Virus record (IMG/VR): IMGVR_UViG_3300012954_000067
Location: 1 to 24,942 of that record
Source of the DNA: a virus
DNA length: 24,942 nt
Reading direction: 5' to 3' (one strand)
Shown here one piece after another: positions 4,154 through 14,876 of this stretch. The notes under the pieces were generated by a model. That model had not been told where the DNA came from. It ran no database searches and saw only the letters and a program-made list of their open reading frames with translations. The position numbers were made by a program, and so were the translations under genes. Position 1 is the stretch's first letter, and each line of letters starts with the position of its first letter.

Positions 4154-5359
4154 ATGAAAGAAAATCTTACATTTGACGATATAAATATCGTACCAAAATA
4201 TTCAGAGTTGAAATCTCGACAAGATGTAAACCTAAATACAAATTTTACAAAGAAAACAACTCTACATAGAACACCAATAGTTGCAGCACCAATGGATACT
4301 ATTTGTGAATATCAAATGGCAAATCAACTATTAGACCAAGGTAGTGTTGGTGTTTTACATCGATTTCGTAGTATTGAAAAACAAGCAAAAGATATGAAGA
4401 GACTTTGGAATCAATGGGATAGTTGGTACAATATAGGTGGTGCAGATAAAGATAGGACAGACCACGACAGAATATATCAAGAATGGTATAAAAAAATAAG
4501 ACATTGGAACTCACCACCAACCAAATCTGATTTTGAAGATTTACAAGACCATCTTTGGTTTGCCGATGAGGCTCAAAGAGATGAAGACTTTTGGTCTACG
4601 AGACCTTTATGTGCAGCAGTTGGTGTAACTGGTGACTATATGGAGAGAGCTCAAGAATTAGTAAACAATGGTTGTAATGTACTACTTATAGATGTGGCCC
4701 ACGGTCATCATCAATTAGTCAAAGAAGCCATTAGGAGAATAAAAAATGAAACAAATGTGGAAGTGGTCGCGGGAAGTATCGCCACTAAAAGAGCCGCGAA
4801 TGATCTTATTGAGTGGGGAGCGGACGCTCTTAGAGTTGGTGTCGGAAATGGATCTCTCTGCGAGACGAGAATCAGGACTGGTGTCGGAGTACCTCAAGTT
4901 AGTGCTCTTATTGATGTTTGTTCCGTTGCTGACAATCATAGTATTCCTGTCATCGCTGATGGTGGTATTCGGTATGTGGGTGATGTGGCTAAGTCATTGG
5001 GTCTTGGAGCCTCTTCGGTTATGGTGGGTTCGTTACTCTCAGGAACGAAAGAAACACCAGGTGAAATTATAAAACAAGGAGAATGGCCAAATGAAAGACT
5101 TTACAAGAAATATAGAGGAAGTGCCTCACTTGATAGTAAGTTGGACAGAGGAGAATCTTCAAATGTTGAAGGAAACTCTAAAATCATTGAATACAAAGGT
5201 AAGGTCATCCGTATCATATCTGATATTCGTGATGGTCTTCGCTCAGCTTTTTCATATGTTGGCGCGAATGATGTATTGGATTTTCAATCGAAATGTGAAT
5301 TCGTCAGAGTCACATCAAACGGAACAATCGAAGCAAAACCACACTTATTATCACGATGA
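4154..5359 (+). CDS. GMP reductase / IMP dehydrogenase family enzyme, 401 aa
   Basis: This is a TIM-barrel purine-nucleotide oxidoreductase. The N-terminus ([14 protein letters not shown]) and [11 protein letters not shown] (40-50) are family hallmarks. The catalytic loop [18 protein letters not shown] (231-248) holds Cys236 and Thr238. The phosphate-binding parts [16 protein letters not shown] (267-282) and [10 protein letters not shown] (289-298) are intact. The regulatory CBS pair of IMPDH is missing; a 60-residue insert (about 88-148) replaces it. The C-terminal flap is short and lacks the Arg-Tyr pair used by IMPDH to hydrolyse E-XMP, which favours GMP reductase (GMP to IMP). DGGIR and the YKKYRG stretch look more like IMPDH, so the reaction is not settled. 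Codon use changes abruptly from about 4755 onward. It sits upstream of apt and the nucleosidase, suggesting purine salvage. Confidence 0.88.
4746..5072 (+). other. candidate overlapping ORF inside the GMPR/IMPDH gene, 108 codons
   Basis: In the +1 frame relative to the main gene, an ATG at 4746 is preceded by AGGAG (4733-4737) at the ideal 8-base distance. It opens 108 codons with two hydrophobic stretches and a basic end. The same frame reopens at ATG 5091, with GGAG near 5078-5081, and runs to 5390. Against it: the main gene is well conserved, and T-ending codons in one frame make hydrophobic residues in this one by default. It is listed because the ORF coincides with the patch of unusual codon use. 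Confidence 0.2.
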
Positions 5360-5737: not shown

Positions 5738-6253
5738 ATGAGTTATAAAGATTACATAAAAGAAGTAAAAGACTTTCCTATTGAGGGAGTAAATTTCAAA
5801 GACATATCACCATTGTTGGCAGACGAAGACACATTTAGGTCATCACTTGTTGATATGGGTAAACAAGTTAGGTTACCTAATTATTGGATGGGTATTGATT
5901 CTCGTGGATATTTGTTTGCTTCAGGTTTAGCAACTTACTTTGGTGGTGGTGTGGTATGTGCAAGAAAAGAAGGAAAGACACCAGGTGACTTTGTAAAGAA
6001 AACATACGATTTAGAATATGGAAGTGCCACAATAGAAATACAACCTTGGAGTGGCCCAATAGGTATGAATGAAGTTGTAATTGTTGATGATGTATTGGCA
6101 ACTGGTGGAACACTAAAGGCAGTAAATGAGTTGGCAGAAACTGCTGGATATAATGTGGTTGGTAATTTAGTTTTAGTTGATTTACAATTTGTACCACGAG
6201 TAGAAAATTTTGATTTATCAGTTAGGAGTGTTGTAAAATATAAGGGGCAATAA
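5738..6253 (+). CDS. apt: adenine phosphoribosyltransferase
   Basis: The enzyme joins adenine to PRPP to make AMP and pyrophosphate in the cytoplasm. The APRT-type N-terminus KDFPIEGVNFKDISPLL (11-27) is clear. MGIDSRGYLFASGLA (51-65) is the base-binding hood and PPi loop. VIVDDVLATGGTLKA (114-128) is the PRPP-binding motif with its two adjacent acidic residues. ARKEGKTPG (75-83) matches the flexible-loop start. Length (171 aa) is normal for the family. It is downstream of the GMPR/IMPDH homologue and a few small genes upstream of an adenine-releasing nucleosidase, which could supply its substrate. Confidence 0.93.
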   Translation: MSYKDYIKEVKDFPIEGVNFKDISPLLADEDTFRSSLVDMGKQVRLPNYWMGIDSRGYLFASGLATYFGGGVVCARKEGKTPGDFVKKTYDLEYGSATIEIQPWSGPIGMNEVVIVDDVLATGGTLKAVNELAETAGYNVVGNLVLVDLQFVPRVENFDLSVRSVVKYKGQ

Positions 6254-6559: not shown

Positions 6560-6639
6560 TAGAAGTACCATTTTATATATTGTTTTGTCTTGTATTCTAT
6601 AATCTAACAAAAGAATTAGAGAGAGATATTTTCAAATGA
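6556..6639 (+). CDS. micro-membrane protein, 27 aa
   Basis: The ATG at 6556 overlaps the previous stop (ATGA) and its own TGA overlaps the next ATG (6636-6639). The product is one hydrophobic aromatic helix (VPFYILFCLVFYNL) plus a charged tail (TKELERDIFK). The double overlap and membrane-like composition support it. It is too short to classify. Confidence 0.45.
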   Translation: MIEVPFYILFCLVFYNLTKELERDIFK

Positions 6640-7229
6640 ACATACTATTAGTTTCTGCATTAGAGATAGAGACAGACAATAAATTAGATAGTTATTTACC
6701 ACATAATCTAATACATACAGGAGTTGGTAAAATAAATGCAACATACCATCTAACAAGAAGATTGTTGGTAGACAGAGCAATAAATTATGAAGCCAGAATA
6801 AATATTGTTATAAATTATGGAACTGCTGGTTCGAGAAAATATGTAAAAGGTAGTCTTGTAGATTGTACCAAATTTATACAACGAGATATGAATGTAACTC
6901 CACTTGGATTTGAATTGGGTCAAACTCCATTTGAAGAAGAACCACATATTATTGAATGTTACCATAATGAGGATTTCAATCCAATAGGTCAAAATACAAC
7001 TTGTGGTAGTGGTGATAATTTTTCTATAGATGAAAGTGATTGGGACAAATGGGATGTTGTTGATATGGAGGCATATTCTTTGGCAAAGGTATGTCGTAAT
7101 TTTGAAGTACCATTTATCTCATTCAAATATATTACAGATGGAGCAGATGATGAGGCGGATTCTGATTGGGAAACAAATGTAAAGAATGGTGTGGAGATAT
7201 TCAAAGAAGAAATCTTAGGAGAGTTATAA
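6636..7229 (+). CDS. MTA/SAH nucleosidase-like (nucleoside phosphorylase superfamily) protein, 197 aa
   Basis: The fold is that of purine nucleoside phosphorylases and 5'-methylthioadenosine/S-adenosylhomocysteine nucleosidases. The N-terminus MNILLVSALEIETDN carries the acidic pair near residues 10-12 used to position water. INYGTAGS (59-66) is the Gly-rich phosphate/water loop. VVDMEAYSLAKVCRNFEVPF (141-160) carries the ribose-binding Met-Glu (Glu145). FKYITDGADDEA (163-174) has the base-protonating Asp168. It is shorter than E. coli Mtn (232 aa). It would split MTA, SAH or a related nucleoside into adenine and a sugar moiety. Phosphorylase activity on another purine nucleoside cannot be excluded. 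Apt upstream could use the adenine, and the methyltransferase downstream makes SAH. Confidence 0.82.
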   Translation: MNILLVSALEIETDNKLDSYLPHNLIHTGVGKINATYHLTRRLLVDRAINYEARINIVINYGTAGSRKYVKGSLVDCTKFIQRDMNVTPLGFELGQTPFEEEPHIIECYHNEDFNPIGQNTTCGSGDNFSIDESDWDKWDVVDMEAYSLAKVCRNFEVPFISFKYITDGADDEADSDWETNVKNGVEIFKEEILGEL

Positions 7230-7658: not shown

Positions 7659-8061
7659 GGGGGTGCTTGGTATCGACTGGTATTGTTTGATATAAAGTGC
7701 AACAGAGATTGAGTATGTCTCGTTACAAAAGACTCACAATCCAAATTGGCGAATTATCGCTAGAAGGGTTGGACATTGATTGGCACTTGGCTGAGTATGA
7801 TTACTCGGCTGAGTTACCAATCGGTAATGACCAACCAACTTACGCATACGCTGCATAAGTTACTGAGTTGTCTAACACTCGGTCATAAAATAAGTTAGAC
7901 ACCAACTCGTGTGATAGAGTATAAATTTCATCAGTTAGACCATTCTGTGTAAAATGGGATATGGTGGTTTGTTGATTTCTACCGATTTGAAATCTTACTA
8001 AGTTGTGAATGACTTTGTATTGAAAATAGACAGGACGCGGGTTCGACTCCCGCCACCTCCA
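7659..8061 (+). ncRNA. ssrA: transfer-messenger RNA (one-piece tmRNA)
   Basis: tmRNA rescues stalled ribosomes and adds a degradation tag, working with host SmpB. The acceptor stem pairs 7659-7665 (GGGGGTG) with 8054-8060 (CACCTCC), with discriminator A8061. The T-arm is GCGGG-TTCGACT-CCCGC (8037-8053). The 5' D-loop part GGTATCGACTGG and the 3' GGACGCGGGTTCGACTCCCGCC match the tmRNA consensus. Helix H2 pairs TTTGATATAAAGT (7686-7698) with ACTTTGTATTGAA (8012-8024), 13 bp with G-U pairs. PK1 has stems GAGA/TCTC (7705-7708/7718-7721) and TGAGT/ACTCA (7710-7714/7732-7736). After the tag, GAGTTG and TCTAAC pair with GTTAGA and CAACTC in a PK2-like region (about 7863-7910). The 3' CCA is not encoded (A8061 is followed by CAA), so the host must add it. 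Phage tmRNAs are known but rare. The tag is unusually long. Confidence 0.95.
7748..7858 (+). other. tmRNA tag-peptide reading frame (36 codons plus TAA)
   Basis: PK1 ends at 7736. Eleven bases later, as in E. coli tmRNA, a GGC codon begins a frame open for 36 codons to TAA at 7856-7858. The tag starts GELSLEGLDIDWHLAE and ends GNDQPTYAYAA. The first two residues match Gly-Glu of Bacteroidetes-type tags, and the small nonpolar Ala-Tyr-Ala-Ala end is what ClpXP-type proteases read. The other two frames close within 4 and 10 codons. The usual tag is about 8-15 residues, with some longer ones of 20-30 in mycoplasmas and a few other lineages. Confidence 0.75.
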
Positions 8062-8062
8062 C

Positions 8063-8662: not shown

Positions 8663-10180
8663 ATGAAAAAACCCTTTTACGAAAGGTCAAATATTACGGA
8701 TGAGAACAATCCGATAAACATCACTTATGATGAGTTATTACATAAATCAAATACTGATATAGATACTTGGATTGATGAACTTCGTGATTATGTTATCACT
8801 CAATGGGACGATAACGGCCAACCTCCTGTCATTGGACAAGACGAAAACACAATAATAAAGAATTGGAAAAAGTTATTCGGATATGATGTAGATTCATTTT
8901 TCGATGAAGAAAATTTAGTTGTAAAAAACTTCAATAAATTTGCAAGTGGTGTGAACCAATTCTTTCCTACAATGTTGAAAACCAAAATCAGTACTGGTGT
9001 GAGTAGTGATAATGCCACTTCTATATACGACCACTTCAAAGAAGATGATTTACGAGACCATTTTAGAAAAGCTATGTTGAGAGGATTGTTCAAAGACTCT
9101 ATGTATAGTTTTGGTAAATCTGTTATACGAGATGAGATGGGAATGACCATCGAAGAATTTTTTGTACACTATAATAACAACGAGAAAAAAGGTATTACTA
9201 TTTTACAGATGAGAGACAAAGATGAAAATAGTGATGAGAAATATCTTATACTTACGGCTGATGAATTGAAAGGTTATATAAATAGTGGACATATTGTTGA
9301 ACAAAACTTACGAACAATAGACAATGATATAGAAAGTTTCTACGAACTAAAAAACGGAGAGAAAAGATACTATCATTATTGGGTAAGGTTATACAATAGA
9401 AAACAAAGAATATTTCCAACTGCACTACAAATATTCAGATTGGGATTAGGACAACCTGCAGTAAACTTCCCACCATTGACTGCTAAATTTTTATACGAAC
9501 ACTTTACAAAACACATTGAAGGTGATGAGACATTATATGTTTATGACCCATCAAGTGGTTGGGGTGGTCGTATTCTTGGAGCTATGTCATCACAACGGAA
9601 CTTACATTATATTGGTACAGACCCAAATCCTGATACAACTGGTAGATATGAAATTGTTGCAAATTACTACAACAATAAATGTTTTGAACCAAATCCATTT
9701 TGGGGAAAAGCCGAACCTAACACATTTGAATTATTTACCAATGGTAGTGAAGAGATTGGAGACAATCCAAGTTTCCAAAAGTATGAGGGTAAGTTAGATT
9801 TTGTATTTACTTCACCACCATACTTCAATAGGGAACAATACTCACAAGATGAAAACCAAAGTTTCAAGAAGTTTGGTGCTTACGAAGATTGGAGAGACCA
9901 CTTTTTGAAACCAACATTGACTACTGCTTTTAGTTATCTAAAAAACAACAGATACATTTGTTGGAATATTGCAGATATAAAAGTAGGTAGTGACACATAC
10001 ATTCCACTCGAACAAGACTCTATCGATGTTATAGAATCTTTGGGTGGTAAGTACATTGGAACATACAAGATGTTGATGACTCGTATGATTGGTATTGATG
10101 CCAGTTCTGTGAAGAACTCAGTAATGGTTGATGACCAACATTTCAAGTTTGAACCTATTTTAGTTTTTTACAAAAAATAG
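8663..10180 (+). CDS. DNA amino-methyltransferase (N6-adenine or N4-cytosine), 505 aa
   Basis: The SAM-binding motif I is seen as YDPSSGWGGRILGA (about 294-307, starting with Asp295). The catalytic motif IV is TSPPYFNREQYS (383-394), of the S/TPPY class used by N4-cytosine and some N6-adenine enzymes. The order of motifs (I then IV) and a following DHFLKPTLTTAFSYLKNNRY segment are normal for methyltransferases. The 280 N-terminal residues are not recognised and may read the target site or do something else. It may protect phage DNA from host restriction or mark it for other phage enzymes. SAH from this reaction could feed the nucleosidase upstream. The HNH-motif protein follows after 43 bases. 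Confidence 0.85.
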   Translation: MKKPFYERSNITDENNPINITYDELLHKSNTDIDTWIDELRDYVITQWDDNGQPPVIGQDENTIIKNWKKLFGYDVDSFFDEENLVVKNFNKFASGVNQFFPTMLKTKISTGVSSDNATSIYDHFKEDDLRDHFRKAMLRGLFKDSMYSFGKSVIRDEMGMTIEEFFVHYNNNEKKGITILQMRDKDENSDEKYLILTADELKGYINSGHIVEQNLRTIDNDIESFYELKNGEKRYYHYWVRLYNRKQRIFPTALQIFRLGLGQPAVNFPPLTAKFLYEHFTKHIEGDETLYVYDPSSGWGGRILGAMSSQRNLHYIGTDPNPDTTGRYEIVANYYNNKCFEPNPFWGKAEPNTFELFTNGSEEIGDNPSFQKYEGKLDFVFTSPPYFNREQYSQDENQSFKKFGAYEDWRDHFLKPTLTTAFSYLKNNRYICWNIADIKVGSDTYIPLEQDSIDVIESLGGKYIGTYKMLMTRMIGIDASSVKNSVMVDDQHFKFEPILVFYKK

Positions 10181-10223: not shown

Positions 10224-12098
10224 ATGAATAAAAAACAATCAATAAAAACTATACTAAAATCATATCTTGGTAAAAGATATAAATTTTTTCCAAAATGGTT
10301 ATTAGATGATATAACAACTTTTGATGGTCATAAAGAAAAGTTAGATAAAGCAACTTTTGAAATCAAAAGGAGTCAAGAAAAACTTTTGAAAGAAACAATG
10401 GATATTGGTAATGAACAAAGAGGTCAAAGTACAAGTCAAATTCTTTCACCAACACATCCTAGCAAACCATATTGGGATGCTGTTATATATTCTGCAGTCT
10501 GTGGTAATGTAGAATCAGGACCTTTGTTATCCGTAGTTGCTGGATATAAAGATCCATTTTATAGTGATTACTTACATAGAAGACTACTATTTGAGAAGTT
10601 AGTCAATGATGAGTGGATTATATCTACTAATCCCGAATCTAAATTCTCAAAATTTTTTGATACCAAAGAAAAAGAAATAATAGATAAGCCATTTTCAGAA
10701 TGGGATACTGAACATAAAAATGGATTTCTTGAAACTGAAATTCCATCAACGGTAAATGTTTATGGTCATAGTGAACTAAATATAAATCAACAAAATAAAT
10801 CAGATGATTTTGCACAAAGAAATGATAGAATGGATGCATTACAAAGGGTACATTCCATAGAAAGTTCTAACAATCGACATAGTAAAATAAATTCTGGTAT
10901 AAGATTTGATGATTATAATGTAAATAAAAAAACTGGTGAGGTTACAGTAAAAGAAAGTTGGGAACATAATAAGATAAGAGAAAATAGTATTTTACCTTTG
11001 ATTAGGCACAAGAATATGAAAGATATAAAATCAGTAGGTAGAGGATATGATAAAAACTTTCAAAGAAAATTACATACTGGATATGTTTTCAAACATCAAT
11101 CTTGGATAAATTTAGATGTATATAAACTTTTTCACGAAATGAAATATTTGTGGGATAAGATTGATTATAAGTCTGATAAAATTTTAGAAAAAAACTTTGT
11201 TGATGTTAGTTGGACAGATATTGATTTTATCAAGTGGACACGAGATAGAACATTTACAGAAAATGAATTAGATAATCTAAAAAATAAAATGACTACTTTT
11301 GATATGTTTTATACTCGATTACAAGACATAGAAAATCTTAGAGTTACATCTCCAACTAAAAAAATGTTTGGATATGATAGAGTTGATATTCTTCCTATGT
11401 GGGTTATATTCAACAGACTTTATGAGATGGGTACATTTTTTGAATATGAAAAATTATCAAAAGAACAAATAACATTTGGTTTAGAATATCAAATTGCTAC
11501 ACTAATACAAAAATTCAAAGTAATGTACAATGATGATGTAGTACCAAGAGAAGATGAGTTGAATTATTATTCACATAAAAGAAGTTTTACAAATAAAAGT
11601 GGACAATACAAAACTATAAAATCATTTTGGAAAGTTTTTCTTGATGGTCATTTTAGTAAAACTATTGATGGTATTACTTGGAGTTGGACTATAGATAAAT
11701 CAGAATATTACGATTGGACATATAAATTTATAGACCCAAAAAGTACATTTTCTAAATCAATAAAACAACAATCTTTTGATGATATGAATGGTATTGATTG
11801 GGTTGATGGTGAGGATTTATTGTTGAATAACTCCGATGGTCATCACATAGTATATCATAAAAATGGTGGTAGTACTACCAACAAAAAGAATTGTGCAATG
11901 GTAAAAGAAAAATACAACAGAAGTTATTTCAATAAAAGTGATATTAATAAATCAAGTGTTGGTATAAAAGAATTATTGAAATCACCAAATACATTTACAG
12001 ATATAAGACGAAAAGAATGGCAAAATGGTGAAATGGTAAAATTAGAAAAACTTGAAAAAGATATAGAGATGTATTATTGGCCAAACTATGTTAGATAA
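10224..12098 (+). CDS. large protein with C-terminal HNH-like motif, 624 aa
   Basis: Most of the protein is Lys/Asn/Asp-rich and not recognised. At residues 538-556 the sequence DGHHIVYHKNGGSTTNKKNC resembles the ββα-metal core of HNH nucleases (paired His, then G-G-x-T-x-x-x-N). A basic segment follows (KEKYNRSYFNKSD). That suggests metal-dependent DNA or RNA cleavage, but the match is one motif only. A clear AAGGAG (10214-10219) precedes ATG 10224, and a TTGACT at 10182-10187 in the short gap could be part of a promoter. The start of the next gene overlaps its end by 11 bases. Being next to a methyltransferase, it may be its restriction-like partner, a DNA-processing nuclease, or an unrelated accessory gene. 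Confidence 0.6.
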   Translation: MNKKQSIKTILKSYLGKRYKFFPKWLLDDITTFDGHKEKLDKATFEIKRSQEKLLKETMDIGNEQRGQSTSQILSPTHPSKPYWDAVIYSAVCGNVESGPLLSVVAGYKDPFYSDYLHRRLLFEKLVNDEWIISTNPESKFSKFFDTKEKEIIDKPFSEWDTEHKNGFLETEIPSTVNVYGHSELNINQQNKSDDFAQRNDRMDALQRVHSIESSNNRHSKINSGIRFDDYNVNKKTGEVTVKESWEHNKIRENSILPLIRHKNMKDIKSVGRGYDKNFQRKLHTGYVFKHQSWINLDVYKLFHEMKYLWDKIDYKSDKILEKNFVDVSWTDIDFIKWTRDRTFTENELDNLKNKMTTFDMFYTRLQDIENLRVTSPTKKMFGYDRVDILPMWVIFNRLYEMGTFFEYEKLSKEQITFGLEYQIATLIQKFKVMYNDDVVPREDELNYYSHKRSFTNKSGQYKTIKSFWKVFLDGHFSKTIDGITWSWTIDKSEYYDWTYKFIDPKSTFSKSIKQQSFDDMNGIDWVDGEDLLLNNSDGHHIVYHKNGGSTTNKKNCAMVKEKYNRSYFNKSDINKSSVGIKELLKSPNTFTDIRRKEWQNGEMVKLEKLEKDIEMYYWPNYVR

Positions 12099-12846
12099 AT
12101 TTTTAGATTACGGGTATGATAGTATTGAGTGTGACATAGAGTTACCTAAACCAATTATCAACGAATATGACGGTATTAGAGTGGTTCGTGATGATTTATT
12201 GGATGGTGGTACAAAGAGAAGAGCTTTTACCAAATATGTTGCATCGCGTCCTGATGTGAAAGAGTTCGTTTATGCATCACCACGCCAAGGATACGCACAA
12301 TTATCTTTATCGTATGCGTGTAGAGATTTGGATAGGAAATGTACTGTTACAGTTCCAAAAGGTCAGAAGACTTGGCTAACAATTGAGTCTGAGAGATTGG
12401 GTTGTAATATCATACAAGTACCAATGGGTTATTTATCCAACATACAGGCTAAGGCTAAAAAGTATTGTGAAGAGAATGAGGCACACTTGATTCCATTTGG
12501 TGGTGACCATCCAATCATTATTGATGCAATGAGAGATGCGGCTTTATCATTGGAGATAGAACCACCAAAAGAAGTTTGGACGGTTATGAGTAGTGGAGTA
12601 TTGAGTCGTGGATTACAAAAGGCTTGGCCAGATGCAAAAGTATATGGTGTTCAAATTGGACACAACACAACAGAAGAAGAGATGGGTAGGGCAGAAACAT
12701 TTCGTTCTAAATATACATTCCAACAAGAATGTAAGAAAGACGAGAGACCACCATTTCCAAGTTCATTGACTTATGATAGTAAGGCGTGGACTTTCATAAA
12801 AGAAAAGGCAACGGAAGGAGCATTATTTTGGAATGTGGGAAAGTAG
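12088..12846 (+). CDS. PLP fold-type-II-like protein (ACC deaminase/threonine synthase superfamily), 252 aa
   Basis: The N-terminal part GIRVVRDDLLDGGTKRRAFT (29-48) matches the ACC-deaminase/D-cysteine-desulfhydrase pattern in which the Lys of GGTKRR (Lys43) holds pyridoxal phosphate. ASPRQGYAQLSLSYACRDL (63-81) takes the place of the S-N-H substrate loop. IPFGGDHP (135-142) and VMSSGVLSRGLQKAWPDAKV (166-185) follow the same order as in that family. The phosphate-cup GSGGT is replaced by SSGVLSRGL, and the length is well below the usual 330-340 residues, so cofactor binding or the reaction may have changed. It overlaps the HNH-motif gene by 11 bases and the next gene by about 19. The substrate is unknown. 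Confidence 0.65.
   Translation: MLDKFLDYGYDSIECDIELPKPIINEYDGIRVVRDDLLDGGTKRRAFTKYVASRPDVKEFVYASPRQGYAQLSLSYACRDLDRKCTVTVPKGQKTWLTIESERLGCNIIQVPMGYLSNIQAKAKKYCEENEAHLIPFGGDHPIIIDAMRDAALSLEIEPPKEVWTVMSSGVLSRGLQKAWPDAKVYGVQIGHNTTEEEMGRAETFRSKYTFQQECKKDERPPFPSSLTYDSKAWTFIKEKATEGALFWNVGK
12813..12820 (+). promoter_or_regulatory. ribosome binding site deciding the start of the glycosyltransferase-like gene
   Basis: GGAAGGAG at 12813-12820 lies inside the end of the PLP-like gene, seven bases before an in-frame TTG (12828). This supports a non-ATG start there rather than the GTG at 12786. Confidence 0.45.
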
Positions 12847-14099
12847 TTATAACGAGACTACGAAATACAGAATACTATAAAGGTGAACCATTGAATCACA
12901 TTGTTGATTCTATTTACCATTTATTAGATAAGTTTATTGTAACTTATGATAATGAGTTTCCACATTTTATGGATACACATAATTGTTCTTTACCATCAAG
13001 AGAAAAAAATAATAGAACTATACGAGATTATAATAAAATACGAGAAGCTGATACATTGATTATACCAAGTGAAAATGAATTCTCATATAACATTAGTGGT
13101 AGAATGTCAAACATTATGTTGGGTAGAGGTTGGTGTCTTGTACAGAATCTAAAAGAAGCTCTAAATGATAATCCAAAACCAAGAAAAATAATTTTACTCA
13201 CAAGTGATAAAGCTGATAAAGTAGTTTTATATAAAAAAGTTTTTGATGGAGTAAAGAATCTATCTTGGTATAGAATAGATGAAAGTGAATTTCGTGGTGG
13301 TATACATCATTTGAAATATTTGGCTATAGAAAAATTAGATTTAGATAAAACTAAAAAAGTAGACTTTGGATATTGGGGAACTTCAAAAAGACTAAAAGTA
13401 GATTATAGTAGTGAGTTTGTAAAAACTCCAATTCACGATTTTTATGATAGAGATGATTGGATAAACAAAGGTGTGATGACATATACAGGTAAAAGTTCAG
13501 GTGGTATTTTGACAAGATATATGAATCGTAAAAATCCTGGTGAAGAACTTCCATCATATAAAAAACAAAGAGAAACAGGAATAAAACATCCTGATTATCC
13601 TGGTGAACCAAGATTCTATGTTGATTTATATAAAGGAAAAGAATCAAAAGATGAACGACACATTATATTGAAAGAAATTTATGATAGTAAACTAACAAAT
13701 AATATGATTGGTTACTTTGACGATTTCAAATTTACACATAAGTTTGACAAAAAATTTACAAACATTTTACCATTCATTTCTGAATGTAATGCAACTTTAT
13801 GTTTCAATTGGCCAGGTCAAGAGAAACATATTACATCAAGATATAATGAGGCATTAGCTTGTGATGTGATTCCATTAGTTTGGAAAAATTATGATTGTGA
13901 TAATAAATTAGTTGCCACAGATTGGCAAAGATGTTATTCTTTTGAAGATATTCAAAAAAAGTGCTTGACTTTAAGGAAAAAAAGTCGTAAATTAGACCTA
14001 CTAAAAACCATAAAAAAGAAGTACTTGAAAAGTACAGAAAACTTAGAATATTATGAAAAAGAATTCAATAATAAATTATATAATATACTTGAGGATTAA
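12828..14099 (+). CDS. glycosyltransferase-like protein of uncertain family, about 423 aa
   Basis: The frame is open from before 12786. TTG 12828 is chosen because of the GGAAGGAG upstream and because the typical beginning VVITRLRNTEYYKGEPLNH comes right after it. GTG 12786 is the alternative. The middle has IILLTSDKADKVVLYKKVF and FGYWGTSKR. The C-terminal part ECNATLCFNWPGQEKH-ITSRYNEALACDVIPLVW resembles the nucleotide-sugar half of GT-B-type enzymes, where an Arg and Glu-Ala-Leu-Ala-x-Gly/Asp precede IPLV. A transferase acting on glycans or modified DNA bases is possible. The N-terminal half has no recognisable motif. It starts inside the PLP-like gene, so the two are probably translated together. 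Confidence 0.6.
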   Translation: MECGKVVITRLRNTEYYKGEPLNHIVDSIYHLLDKFIVTYDNEFPHFMDTHNCSLPSREKNNRTIRDYNKIREADTLIIPSENEFSYNISGRMSNIMLGRGWCLVQNLKEALNDNPKPRKIILLTSDKADKVVLYKKVFDGVKNLSWYRIDESEFRGGIHHLKYLAIEKLDLDKTKKVDFGYWGTSKRLKVDYSSEFVKTPIHDFYDRDDWINKGVMTYTGKSSGGILTRYMNRKNPGEELPSYKKQRETGIKHPDYPGEPRFYVDLYKGKESKDERHIILKEIYDSKLTNNMIGYFDDFKFTHKFDKKFTNILPFISECNATLCFNWPGQEKHITSRYNEALACDVIPLVWKNYDCDNKLVATDWQRCYSFEDIQKKCLTLRKKSRKLDLLKTIKKKYLKSTENLEYYEKEFNNKLYNILED

Positions 14100-14102
14100 T
14101 AA

Positions 14103-14876
14103 ATGAAACAATTGACACCAGAACAAATAGTAAATAATTGGAATGAACTGATTCAGTTGATTGAAGGTGAATTTGATGGAGAGAGAAAAGAAAAACTCTT
14201 AGAGATGTATAAATACTTTGAGGATAGAATGTCTATCGCACCAGCTAGTGGTAAAGAACATTACCACAATGCATATGTTGGTGGTTATGTTGAGCATGTC
14301 TTGCATGTTTACAGATGTGCAATATCTATCAAACAACAATGGGAAGAGAAAGGTGCCACAATAAACTTCACAGACGAAGAATTGGCAATGGCAGCTATCC
14401 ATCACGACTTAGGTAAAGTTGGTGATTTATACAATGAATATTACACACCAAATGAATCAGATTGGCATCGTAAGAATCAAGGACTAATATTTTCACATAA
14501 TGGTGATTTACAATTTATGACTGTTACTGATAGGGCATTGTTCTTATTACAACACTTTGGAATATCATTGACAGAGAATGAATATATTGGTTTGAGACTT
14601 ACTGATGGACTTTATGAAGAGGCTAACAAACCTTATTACATTGGATATTCTCCTGATAGACAACTCAAAAGTAATATTGCCTATATATTACATCAGGCAG
14701 ACTCTATGGCCACTCACATCGAATATGATATGTGGAAAAGAGGGGAAGAGAAAATAACAAAAAACATCAAACAAGTTGTTGCTAAAGAAGTGAAGAAAGT
14801 AGAAAAAGAAGAAAAAGTTGTGACAAAAGGTGCTAACGATTTATTTGATGAACTATTCGGAGATATGGAGAAATGA
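14103..14876 (+). CDS. HD-domain phosphohydrolase (YhaM-like), 257 aa
   Basis: HD metal ligands are visible: His53/55 and His65 in EHYHNAYVGGYVEHVLHV (52-69), His101-Asp102 in MAAIHHDLGKVGD (96-108), and Asp200 in ILHQADSMATHIEYD. The HNAYVGGYVEH arrangement is like that of the HD 3'-5' exoribonuclease YhaM, though the OB domain of that enzyme is absent. It may hydrolyse nucleotides, cyclic nucleotides or RNA ends. After residue 205 comes a Lys/Glu coiled stretch and a short end DLFDELFGDMEK. That end resembles hydrophobic-acidic C-terminal clamp-binding peptides such as the SLFDMF end of RB69 DNA polymerase. It lies two genes before the late sigma factor. Confidence 0.85.
   Translation: MKQLTPEQIVNNWNELIQLIEGEFDGERKEKLLEMYKYFEDRMSIAPASGKEHYHNAYVGGYVEHVLHVYRCAISIKQQWEEKGATINFTDEELAMAAIHHDLGKVGDLYNEYYTPNESDWHRKNQGLIFSHNGDLQFMTVTDRALFLLQHFGISLTENEYIGLRLTDGLYEEANKPYYIGYSPDRQLKSNIAYILHQADSMATHIEYDMWKRGEEKITKNIKQVVAKEVKKVEKEEKVVTKGANDLFDELFGDMEK

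Follow-up and report, generated by a model that had tools for sequence, protein, structure and literature searches.

What brings a nuclease-like, a pyridoxal 5'-phosphate (PLP)-dependent and a glycosyltransferase-like protein together in one chain of overlapping genes, next to a DNA methyltransferase? The question is raised by a marine phage, of which 24,942 nt were analysed (positions 1-24,942 of IMG/VR record IMGVR_UViG_3300012954_000067; hereafter the window). A preliminary description of this DNA had proposed that the chain serves the hypermodification of DNA bases with an amino acid and a sugar. Since a methyltransferase-like gene (MT), a PLP enzyme of the family known from phage M6 (PALP) and a glycosyltransferase (GT) with the fold of the phage T4 beta-glucosyltransferase (BGT) occur together, the most likely outcome is chemically decorated phage DNA. 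The chain probably belongs to a DNA-base hypermodification cassette in which MT and PALP form the core and a group derived from S-adenosylmethionine (SAM) is placed on the base. The earlier proposal is strengthened by the M6-family PLP enzyme, by the BGT fold and by the recurrence of the MT-PALP pair in other phages; the nuclease-like protein, in contrast, has to be taken out of the pathway.

The three genes overlap as first described, the last of them starting from a TTG. Open frames run over 10224-12098, 12088-12846 and, for the third gene, 12786-14099. The first and second genes share 11 nt (12088-12098), and the second and third share 19 nt when counted from the TTG at 12828. This codon stands in register in 17 of the 19 loci with a homologous third gene, which stand for 15 distinct contigs, L056 and L057 being repeats of L004 and L006. 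Of the remaining two loci, L058 is truncated, and L035 has an ATG of its own for the third gene, 4 nt before the PLP gene ends. Because the codons for Phe and Trp of the PLP protein contain this TTG, little can be concluded from its being conserved; the conserved open frame, not the TTG itself, is the evidence for the start of the third gene, and in 9 of the 17 loci an earlier in-frame start is absent. A chance overlap of unrelated open reading frames (ORFs) is ruled out by the conserved frames together with the conserved gene order.

The second gene encodes a PLP enzyme of fold type II, a label that holds. Its product passes the Pfam cut-off for PF00291 (37.6 bits, cut-off 35), and its AlphaFold2 (AF2) model (pLDDT 92) matches a 1-aminocyclopropane-1-carboxylate (ACC) deaminase homologue with Z 24.5 and D-cysteine desulfhydrase with Z 24; matches in a profile search of PDB sequences were marginal, and a search of phage records with the protein gave 3 records only. 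Sequence comparison places it over its full length in the family of M6 gp052. It scores 129.9 bits against phrog_7093 over profile positions 15-279 of 279, the same family that M6 gp052 matches with 530 bits, and a PALP-family profile built without M6 retrieves M6 gp052 (63.4 bits, E 2e-16) and CN2 gp11 (52.3 bits), the scores in E. coli being 18.1 bits for CysK (E 0.015), 13.4 for CysM, 6.8 for DcyD and 5.0 for TdcB. The predicted Schiff-base lysine, K43, is invariant in 25 of 25 alignment rows, and this lysine and the C-terminal motif PFP..YD.KAW...FWN.G align with those of M6 gp052. The M6 enzyme is reportedly a decarboxylase that acts on a DNA-bound amino acid, as work by Lee and colleagues in 2022 is said to have found. 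The DNA of M6 is described as containing the aminoalkyl base 5-(2-aminoethyl)deoxyuridine (5-NedU) (PMC6449724), and this PLP enzyme is counted in the thymidine-hypermodification cassette of phage SN1 (PMC9476957), a phage with 96.8% identity to M6 over 91%.

The likeness to the M6/YuA thymidine hypermodification extends to the PLP family, its motif and its lysine, whereas M6 itself has an amino acid:DNA transferase (ADDT), and a 5-hydroxymethyldeoxyuridine (5-hmdU) kinase, together with one gene like that of thymidylate synthase and one, scoring below cut-off, of radical-SAM type. ADDT and 5-hmdU kinase were found in 0 of the 15 viral records with MT or PALP genes, nor in phages R6L, ZS04 and Mae-JY30, with M6 as a positive control. 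An M6-type route through 5-hmdU and amino-acid ligation was rejected on the missing ADDT and kinase and on PF00303, the dCMP-hydroxymethylase/thymidylate-synthase family, of which no member was detected in 8 of 10 records, including the large relatives G001 and G002, and only weak matches in the other 2.

The PLP gene has its main partner in the MT, and the MT-PALP pair recurs in unrelated phages. Among 51 PALP loci the MT lies upstream in 20 and only downstream in 12, and none was seen in 19, several of which have little upstream sequence. Eleven of the 20 upstream MTs abut PALP; in the remaining 9 the two genes are 1.6 to 2.2 kb apart, and in 6 of those 9, on inspection, the gap is a single ORF that ends at the PALP start. 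The MT abuts PALP upstream in 7 of 13 genome loci. PALP genes beside phage MTs, annotated as threonine dehydratase or DNA methylase, are widespread: a wider scan of viral contigs gave 525 matching stretches, and in the best 80 of these the MT abuts upstream in 77 and is adjacent on the other strand in 1, with 2 loci cut; the 77 cannot be read as an unbiased rate, because 8 of the 10 rows of the query profile were themselves MT-abutting or MT-fused PALPs. The MT is split into halves around the PALP domain in the Erythrobacter phages R6L and ZS04 and the Pseudanabaena phage Pam4; the R6L protein is identical to the ParB-type MT of L062 at 297 of 506 positions, its main insertion covering residues 380-637. 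In the Mycobacterium phage Vincenzo a ParB-type MT overlaps another PALP (PF00291 40.6 bits, phrog_3650 357 bits, phrog_7093 45 bits), which as a query found only Vincenzo itself among the viral contigs.

Beside other MTs of this family, a different enzyme stands where PALP would be. In the Croceibacter phage P2559S (L233:2856-4497) a ParB-type MT overlaps by 38 nt a gene for AdoMet (SAM) decarboxylase (AdoMetDC; PF02675 70.3 bits), and of the 87 viral relatives of this gene, the best 80 (L238-L317) have a ParB-type MT abutting in 71 cases, elsewhere in 1 and none in 8. PALP occurs in 0 of these 80 AdoMetDC loci, and such a decarboxylase in 0 of 152 PALP loci; the SpeD profile gave no match in the window, G001 or G002. 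Counterparts of S63, H68 and C83, given as essential in the Thermotoga maritima AdoMetDC (PMC10407285), are kept in 61 of 61 covering rows, with 1tlu as the PDB match. The P2559S enzyme is reported to restore spermidine in an E. coli speD mutant, and is therefore a genuine AdoMetDC; decarboxylated SAM is described in the same paper as the aminopropyl donor of spermidine synthesis (PMC9992855). No spermidine synthase (PF01564) was detectable in P2559S. In a tree of the MTs the PALP-linked and AdoMetDC-linked types cluster apart, the sole use that we make of the tree, which was built on a motif-anchored core of 154 columns with 56 of 76 rows left after removal of near-copies; rows below 100 bits against the ParB-type profile had been removed beforehand, and with them the other marine MTs, and the window MT was added by hand. 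By analogy, the exchange of partners suggests a group of aminopropyl type, not a ligated amino acid, and AdoMetDC genes published as polyamine genes may serve DNA modification.

The homologies, folds, gene coupling and partner exchange found here would fit the following route, in which the chemistry throughout, the base that is targeted and the sequence of events are our proposal. The MT-fold protein would flip out a base and attach a SAM-derived group, probably at an exocyclic amine, and PALP would act on the attached group or its donor as a decarboxylase or a related alpha-amino-acid enzyme. The product that we favour would be a 3-amino-3-carboxypropyl or 3-aminopropyl base, the MT family transferring either an aminopropyl chain or an aminocarboxypropyl chain that PALP then decarboxylates. 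It is a tentative suggestion, possible rather than probable, that this constitutes a new kind of modification of phage DNA in which an MT-fold enzyme (aminocarboxy)propylates the base and AdoMetDC and the M6-family PLP enzyme are interchangeable as the decarboxylase. With the same reserve we suggest that orphan phage AdoMetDCs serve DNA and not polyamines, and that the product in the window group may carry a T4-type glucosyl cap.

Such a cap would be the work of the third gene, whose glycosyltransferase label stands and can be narrowed, on the fold of its model, to the T4 BGT type. The best structural match of the AF2 model (pLDDT 77, pTM 0.80) is T4 BGT (1nzd; Z 18.5, 3.9 Å over 292 residues, 13% identity), followed by the T4 alpha-glucosyltransferase (AGT; Z 15.3) and by generic, non-T4 GT-B enzymes at Z 14.1 and lower, and T4 BGT takes all of Foldseek ranks 1-6 (E 1e-5 to 1e-4, best 1.2e-5). 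D127, R338 and E341 are invariant in 15 rows, as is YWGTSK, and the contexts D127/YWGTSK/R338..E341 resemble D100/YGGSFRSGQR/R269..E272 of T4 BGT, in which we take D100 to be the catalytic Asp and R269 and E272 to be UDP-binding residues; this putative equivalence comes from sequence context, hhalign giving E 0.15 and a probability of 0.4 per cent. A significant sequence match to BGT was not obtained, and a profile search of PDB sequences gave nothing. In the marine locus sets the GT gene directly follows PALP wherever its start is included. The expectation that PLP and GT genes form a conserved pair in marine phages holds in part: the two are neighbours wherever both were matched in one locus of these sets. 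At many PLP loci, however, this GT is missing, and the pairing fails for phage HTVC008M, the only phage found in a phage-record search with the GT (2 records). There, the homologue gp104 (L075:5998-7005) of this pelagiphage has no adjoining PALP, and a 2-oxoglutarate-Fe(II) (2OG-Fe(II)) oxygenase gene is found two genes off.

The BGT-fold GT might add a sugar to the modification made by MT and PALP or to a neighbouring one. A BGT-like enzyme normally needs a hydroxyl acceptor. Like T4 BGT in fold and residue contexts, the window GT differs from it in its low identity and in the lack of a dCMP-hydroxymethylase-family gene in G001 and G002. C5-methyltransferases (PF00145) were found in 0 of 15 viral records, G001 and G002 included, although the records scanned for pathway genes may be fragments; R6L and ZS04 carry a PF00145 gene elsewhere in their genomes. 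A search for TET was silent, but it was silent in its controls too and is thus uninformative. A route from 5-methylcytosine through TET to a glucoside was set aside on the missing C5-methyltransferase in 15 of 15 viral records, the TET search having no bearing on it.

Several observations weigh against the proposed cassette. A source of the hydroxyl for a BGT-type transfer, whether a hydroxymethylase (8 of 10 records without PF00303) or a C5-methyltransferase (15 of 15 viral records without PF00145), was not found. The window MT is a distant member of its family, with 16-19% identity to the ParB-type MTs and a very long branch in the tree, so that the AdoMetDC argument is carried over from its cousins. 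Among 52 loci retrieved with the window MT, 18 hold PALP (6 in the island between MT and the HD-domain gene, 12 several kb off) and 34 do not, and nine close relatives (L081-L086, L089, L091, L123) have none; the MT thus does occur without an adjoining PALP, as many marine and freshwater relatives do. To these come the 8 AdoMetDC loci without MT, the ParB-type MTs of Listeria phage B054 and HCTV-2, which have neither partner beside them, and the finding that ornithine or arginine, not SAM, is the substrate of some phage SpeD homologues (PMC9992855).

The MT loci that lack these partners speak for an alternative, namely that the MT makes ordinary N4-methylcytosine or N6-methyladenine, that PALP is an unrelated auxiliary metabolic enzyme (such as a lyase or deaminase acting on free amino acids) and that the GT glycosylates something else. 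The motif IV sequence SPPY fits amino-methyltransferases, and PADLOC labels the window MT as a Type II methyltransferase. The earlier view of the MT as a DNA methyltransferase stands to the extent that it is an SPPY-type homologue: it reaches 23.8 bits against PF01555, below the cut-off of 26.7, which is passed by its relatives in R6L, P2559S, Pam4, HCTV-2 and B054 but not by that of Vincenzo. The PPY of its TSPPY motif is invariant in 15 rows of the MT alignment, and it matches phrog_12517 (E 1.2e-14) and phrog_498 (E 1.1e-10), both of which also match the PALP-fused protein of R6L. Its part as a mere neighbour does not stand, as it is the main partner of PALP. An unrelated auxiliary enzyme is hard to reconcile with the abutting pairs, with three proteins in which PALP lies between MT halves, with the membership of PALP in the M6 gp052 family and with the BGT fold of the GT. 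We therefore consider ordinary methylation unlikely, though it is the alternative to which we would give most room.

The GT may also act as a T4-like enzyme on a 5-hydroxymethyl-pyrimidine, independently of the PLP gene. Its closest folds are T4 BGT and AGT, a TAGT gene (PF20691) stands in the same island in 2 of 16 records (G002 and G011), that of G002 (L005) being homologous to the beta-glucosyl-hydroxymethylcytosine (HMC) alpha-glucosyltransferase, and the HTVC008M homologue stands without PALP. Against this count the lack of PF00303 in G001 and G002, the lack of a C5-methyltransferase in all 15 viral records and the position of the GT gene directly behind PALP in marine loci, and we see only a small chance for this explanation.

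The chance is smaller still that PALP or AdoMetDC consumes SAM and so starves SAM-dependent defences of the host, with the MT protecting phage DNA in parallel. Either partner could plausibly act on SAM or on an amino acid, and PMC12783734 cites phage SAM lyases by which BREX is disrupted. However, such depletion would also starve the phage's own MT, which is fused to or overlaps these genes. There is hardly any chance that PALP carries out a beta-replacement with O-phosphoserine supplied by a ParB/Srx domain fused to the MT (compare a serine kinase with an SbnA-type enzyme; we take SbnI and SerK to be ParB-fold serine kinases) and loads an alanyl group on the base: ParB/Srx-like domains do precede the MT in R6L, L062, Vincenzo and B054, but a ParB-like domain is also found in AdoMetDC-linked and partnerless MTs, and none was matched in the window MT by Pfam or PHROG.

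For the cassette proposed here, the closest published idea that we found is the carboxymethylcytosine system CmoX/CmoY of Synechococcus phage S-B43, in which an MT homologue is described as using a modified SAM to put in place a handle that is then decorated further; a preliminary search by its authors is said there to have given no N6 or N4 candidates associated with CmoA (PMC12783734). As described, CmoX is a C5-methyltransferase with SPPC and carboxy-SAM (Cx-SAM), whereas here an SPPY protein of the amino-methyltransferase type stands with PALP or AdoMetDC. The CmoB family PF08003 was silent in 19 of 19; this family is presumably not CmoA, and its silence therefore says nothing on Cx-SAM. 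The AdoMetDC of P2559S is an active enzyme whose gene overlaps a ParB-type member of the same MT family, in a place taken by PALP in the window; the paper on it treats it as polyamine metabolism, the words "methyltransferase" and "methylase" being absent from the main text (PMC9992855). In titles and abstract openings of the open-access literature searched, neither an MT-PALP nor an MT-AdoMetDC pair was described in DNA modification. The proposed modification would link three puzzles: PLP genes beside MTs, AdoMetDCs without a spermidine synthase, and a T4-type GT without a hydroxymethylase in near relatives. If true, the handles known from phage DNA, hydroxymethyl and carboxymethyl, would be joined by a SAM-derived alkyl-amine one, and for MT-AdoMetDC an isolated phage-host pair exists in P2559S on Croceibacter atlanticus.

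The first gene of the chain is a passenger. It had been called HNH-like, and a motif GHHI..H..GG.T...N can indeed be spotted by eye, but the protein has no match in Pfam (E 0.1), PHROGs (E 5) or PADLOC. It has no close relative in viral_contigs, and a comparison with 12 further ORFs of the island gave no match. Locus L078, with an MT 98% identical to that of the window, holds a different ORF in this slot, GmrSD_C-like at 24.4 bits (cut-off 23). The slot ORFs of L006 and L008 are distantly related to a downstream ORF of L016, which matches the homing endonuclease family phrog_314 (E 2e-8), and other loci have several unclassified ORFs or an empty slot. Because the slot elsewhere holds unrelated ORFs or none, a nuclease as a member of the pathway is ruled out. 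The ORF is AT-rich (GC 0.27; GC at third codon positions, GC3, 0.15), and the GT gene resembles it in composition (GC 0.275, GC3 0.16); the PLP gene has GC 0.38 and GC3 0.28, and GC is 0.33 for the MT and 0.34 for the HD gene. The contigs of the two large relatives break at the cassette, G001 (L078) ending inside PALP and G002 (L005) beginning at the ORF that precedes PALP, and these breaks look as if the variable slot defeats assembly.

Table 1. Genes of the cassette and its surroundings in the window, with the basis of each assignment.
Feature	Coordinates	Strand	Basis
Adenine phosphoribosyltransferase	5738..6253	+	NF002636 161.8 bits, cut-off 125
MTA/SAH (methylthioadenosine/S-adenosylhomocysteine) nucleosidase-like protein	6636..7229	+	PF01048 53.3 bits; TIGR01705 67.5 (below cut-off 152.2)
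MT: DNA methyltransferase homologue of SPPY type, 505 aa, presumably the base-modifying transferase	8663..10180	+	PF01555 below cut-off; phrog_12517
Replaceable passenger ORF, 624 aa, HNH-like motif by eye	10224..12098	+	no family match
PALP: PLP enzyme, fold type II, 252 aa, M6 gp052 family	12088..12846	+	phrog_7093, PF00291
GT: T4 BGT-like glycosyltransferase, 423 aa from TTG 12828	12828..14099	+	AF2 model, structural matches
HD-domain phosphohydrolase-like protein	14103..14876	+	PF01966 17.2 bits (below cut-off 22); phrog_28876 E 1.9e-12

Among the neighbouring genes, the HD gene is a conserved member of the surroundings, found up- or downstream of PALP in 44 of 51 PALP loci. The nucleosidase gene precedes the MT-PALP pair in L041, L043, L044 and L046, and the phosphoribosyltransferase gene in L041, L043 and L044. 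Judged from their families, the nucleosidase could recycle the by-product of SAM and the phosphoribosyltransferase could salvage the freed adenine; the two fit heavy use of SAM by either chemistry and therefore do not discriminate. A tmRNA gene with the tag GNDQPTYAYAA lies just ahead of the cassette (7659-8062), and an IMP dehydrogenase homologue (4154-5359; PF00478 342.7 bits) is found among nucleotide-metabolism genes.

Related genes also appear in other settings. An ORF of about 430-440 aa stands behind the MT in sister cassettes (L081:6375-7697, L079:9515-10801); that of L081, with 440 aa and at the place of PALP, combines an Asp/Asn beta-hydroxylase domain (PF05118) with an N-terminal half that is GNAT-like by eye, and ORFs of this type may be another DNA-decorating enzyme. 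PALP homologues occur in a different context in L066:3503-9051 and L069:2-3084, where upstream ORFs common to the two loci are amino acid:DNA transferase-like by eye, those of L066 having no Pfam match; the second gene downstream of PALP in L066 encodes a C5-cytosine methyltransferase (PF00145). Three more ORFs related to the window MT lie in the replication region of G001 (78374-84255; L135, L136), next to genes that look clamp-loader-like and polymerase-like by eye. G001 also contains a long run of genes (55097-75809) that by eye resemble those for glycosyltransferases, sugar epimerases and aminotransferases and may form a glycan or nucleotide-sugar island.

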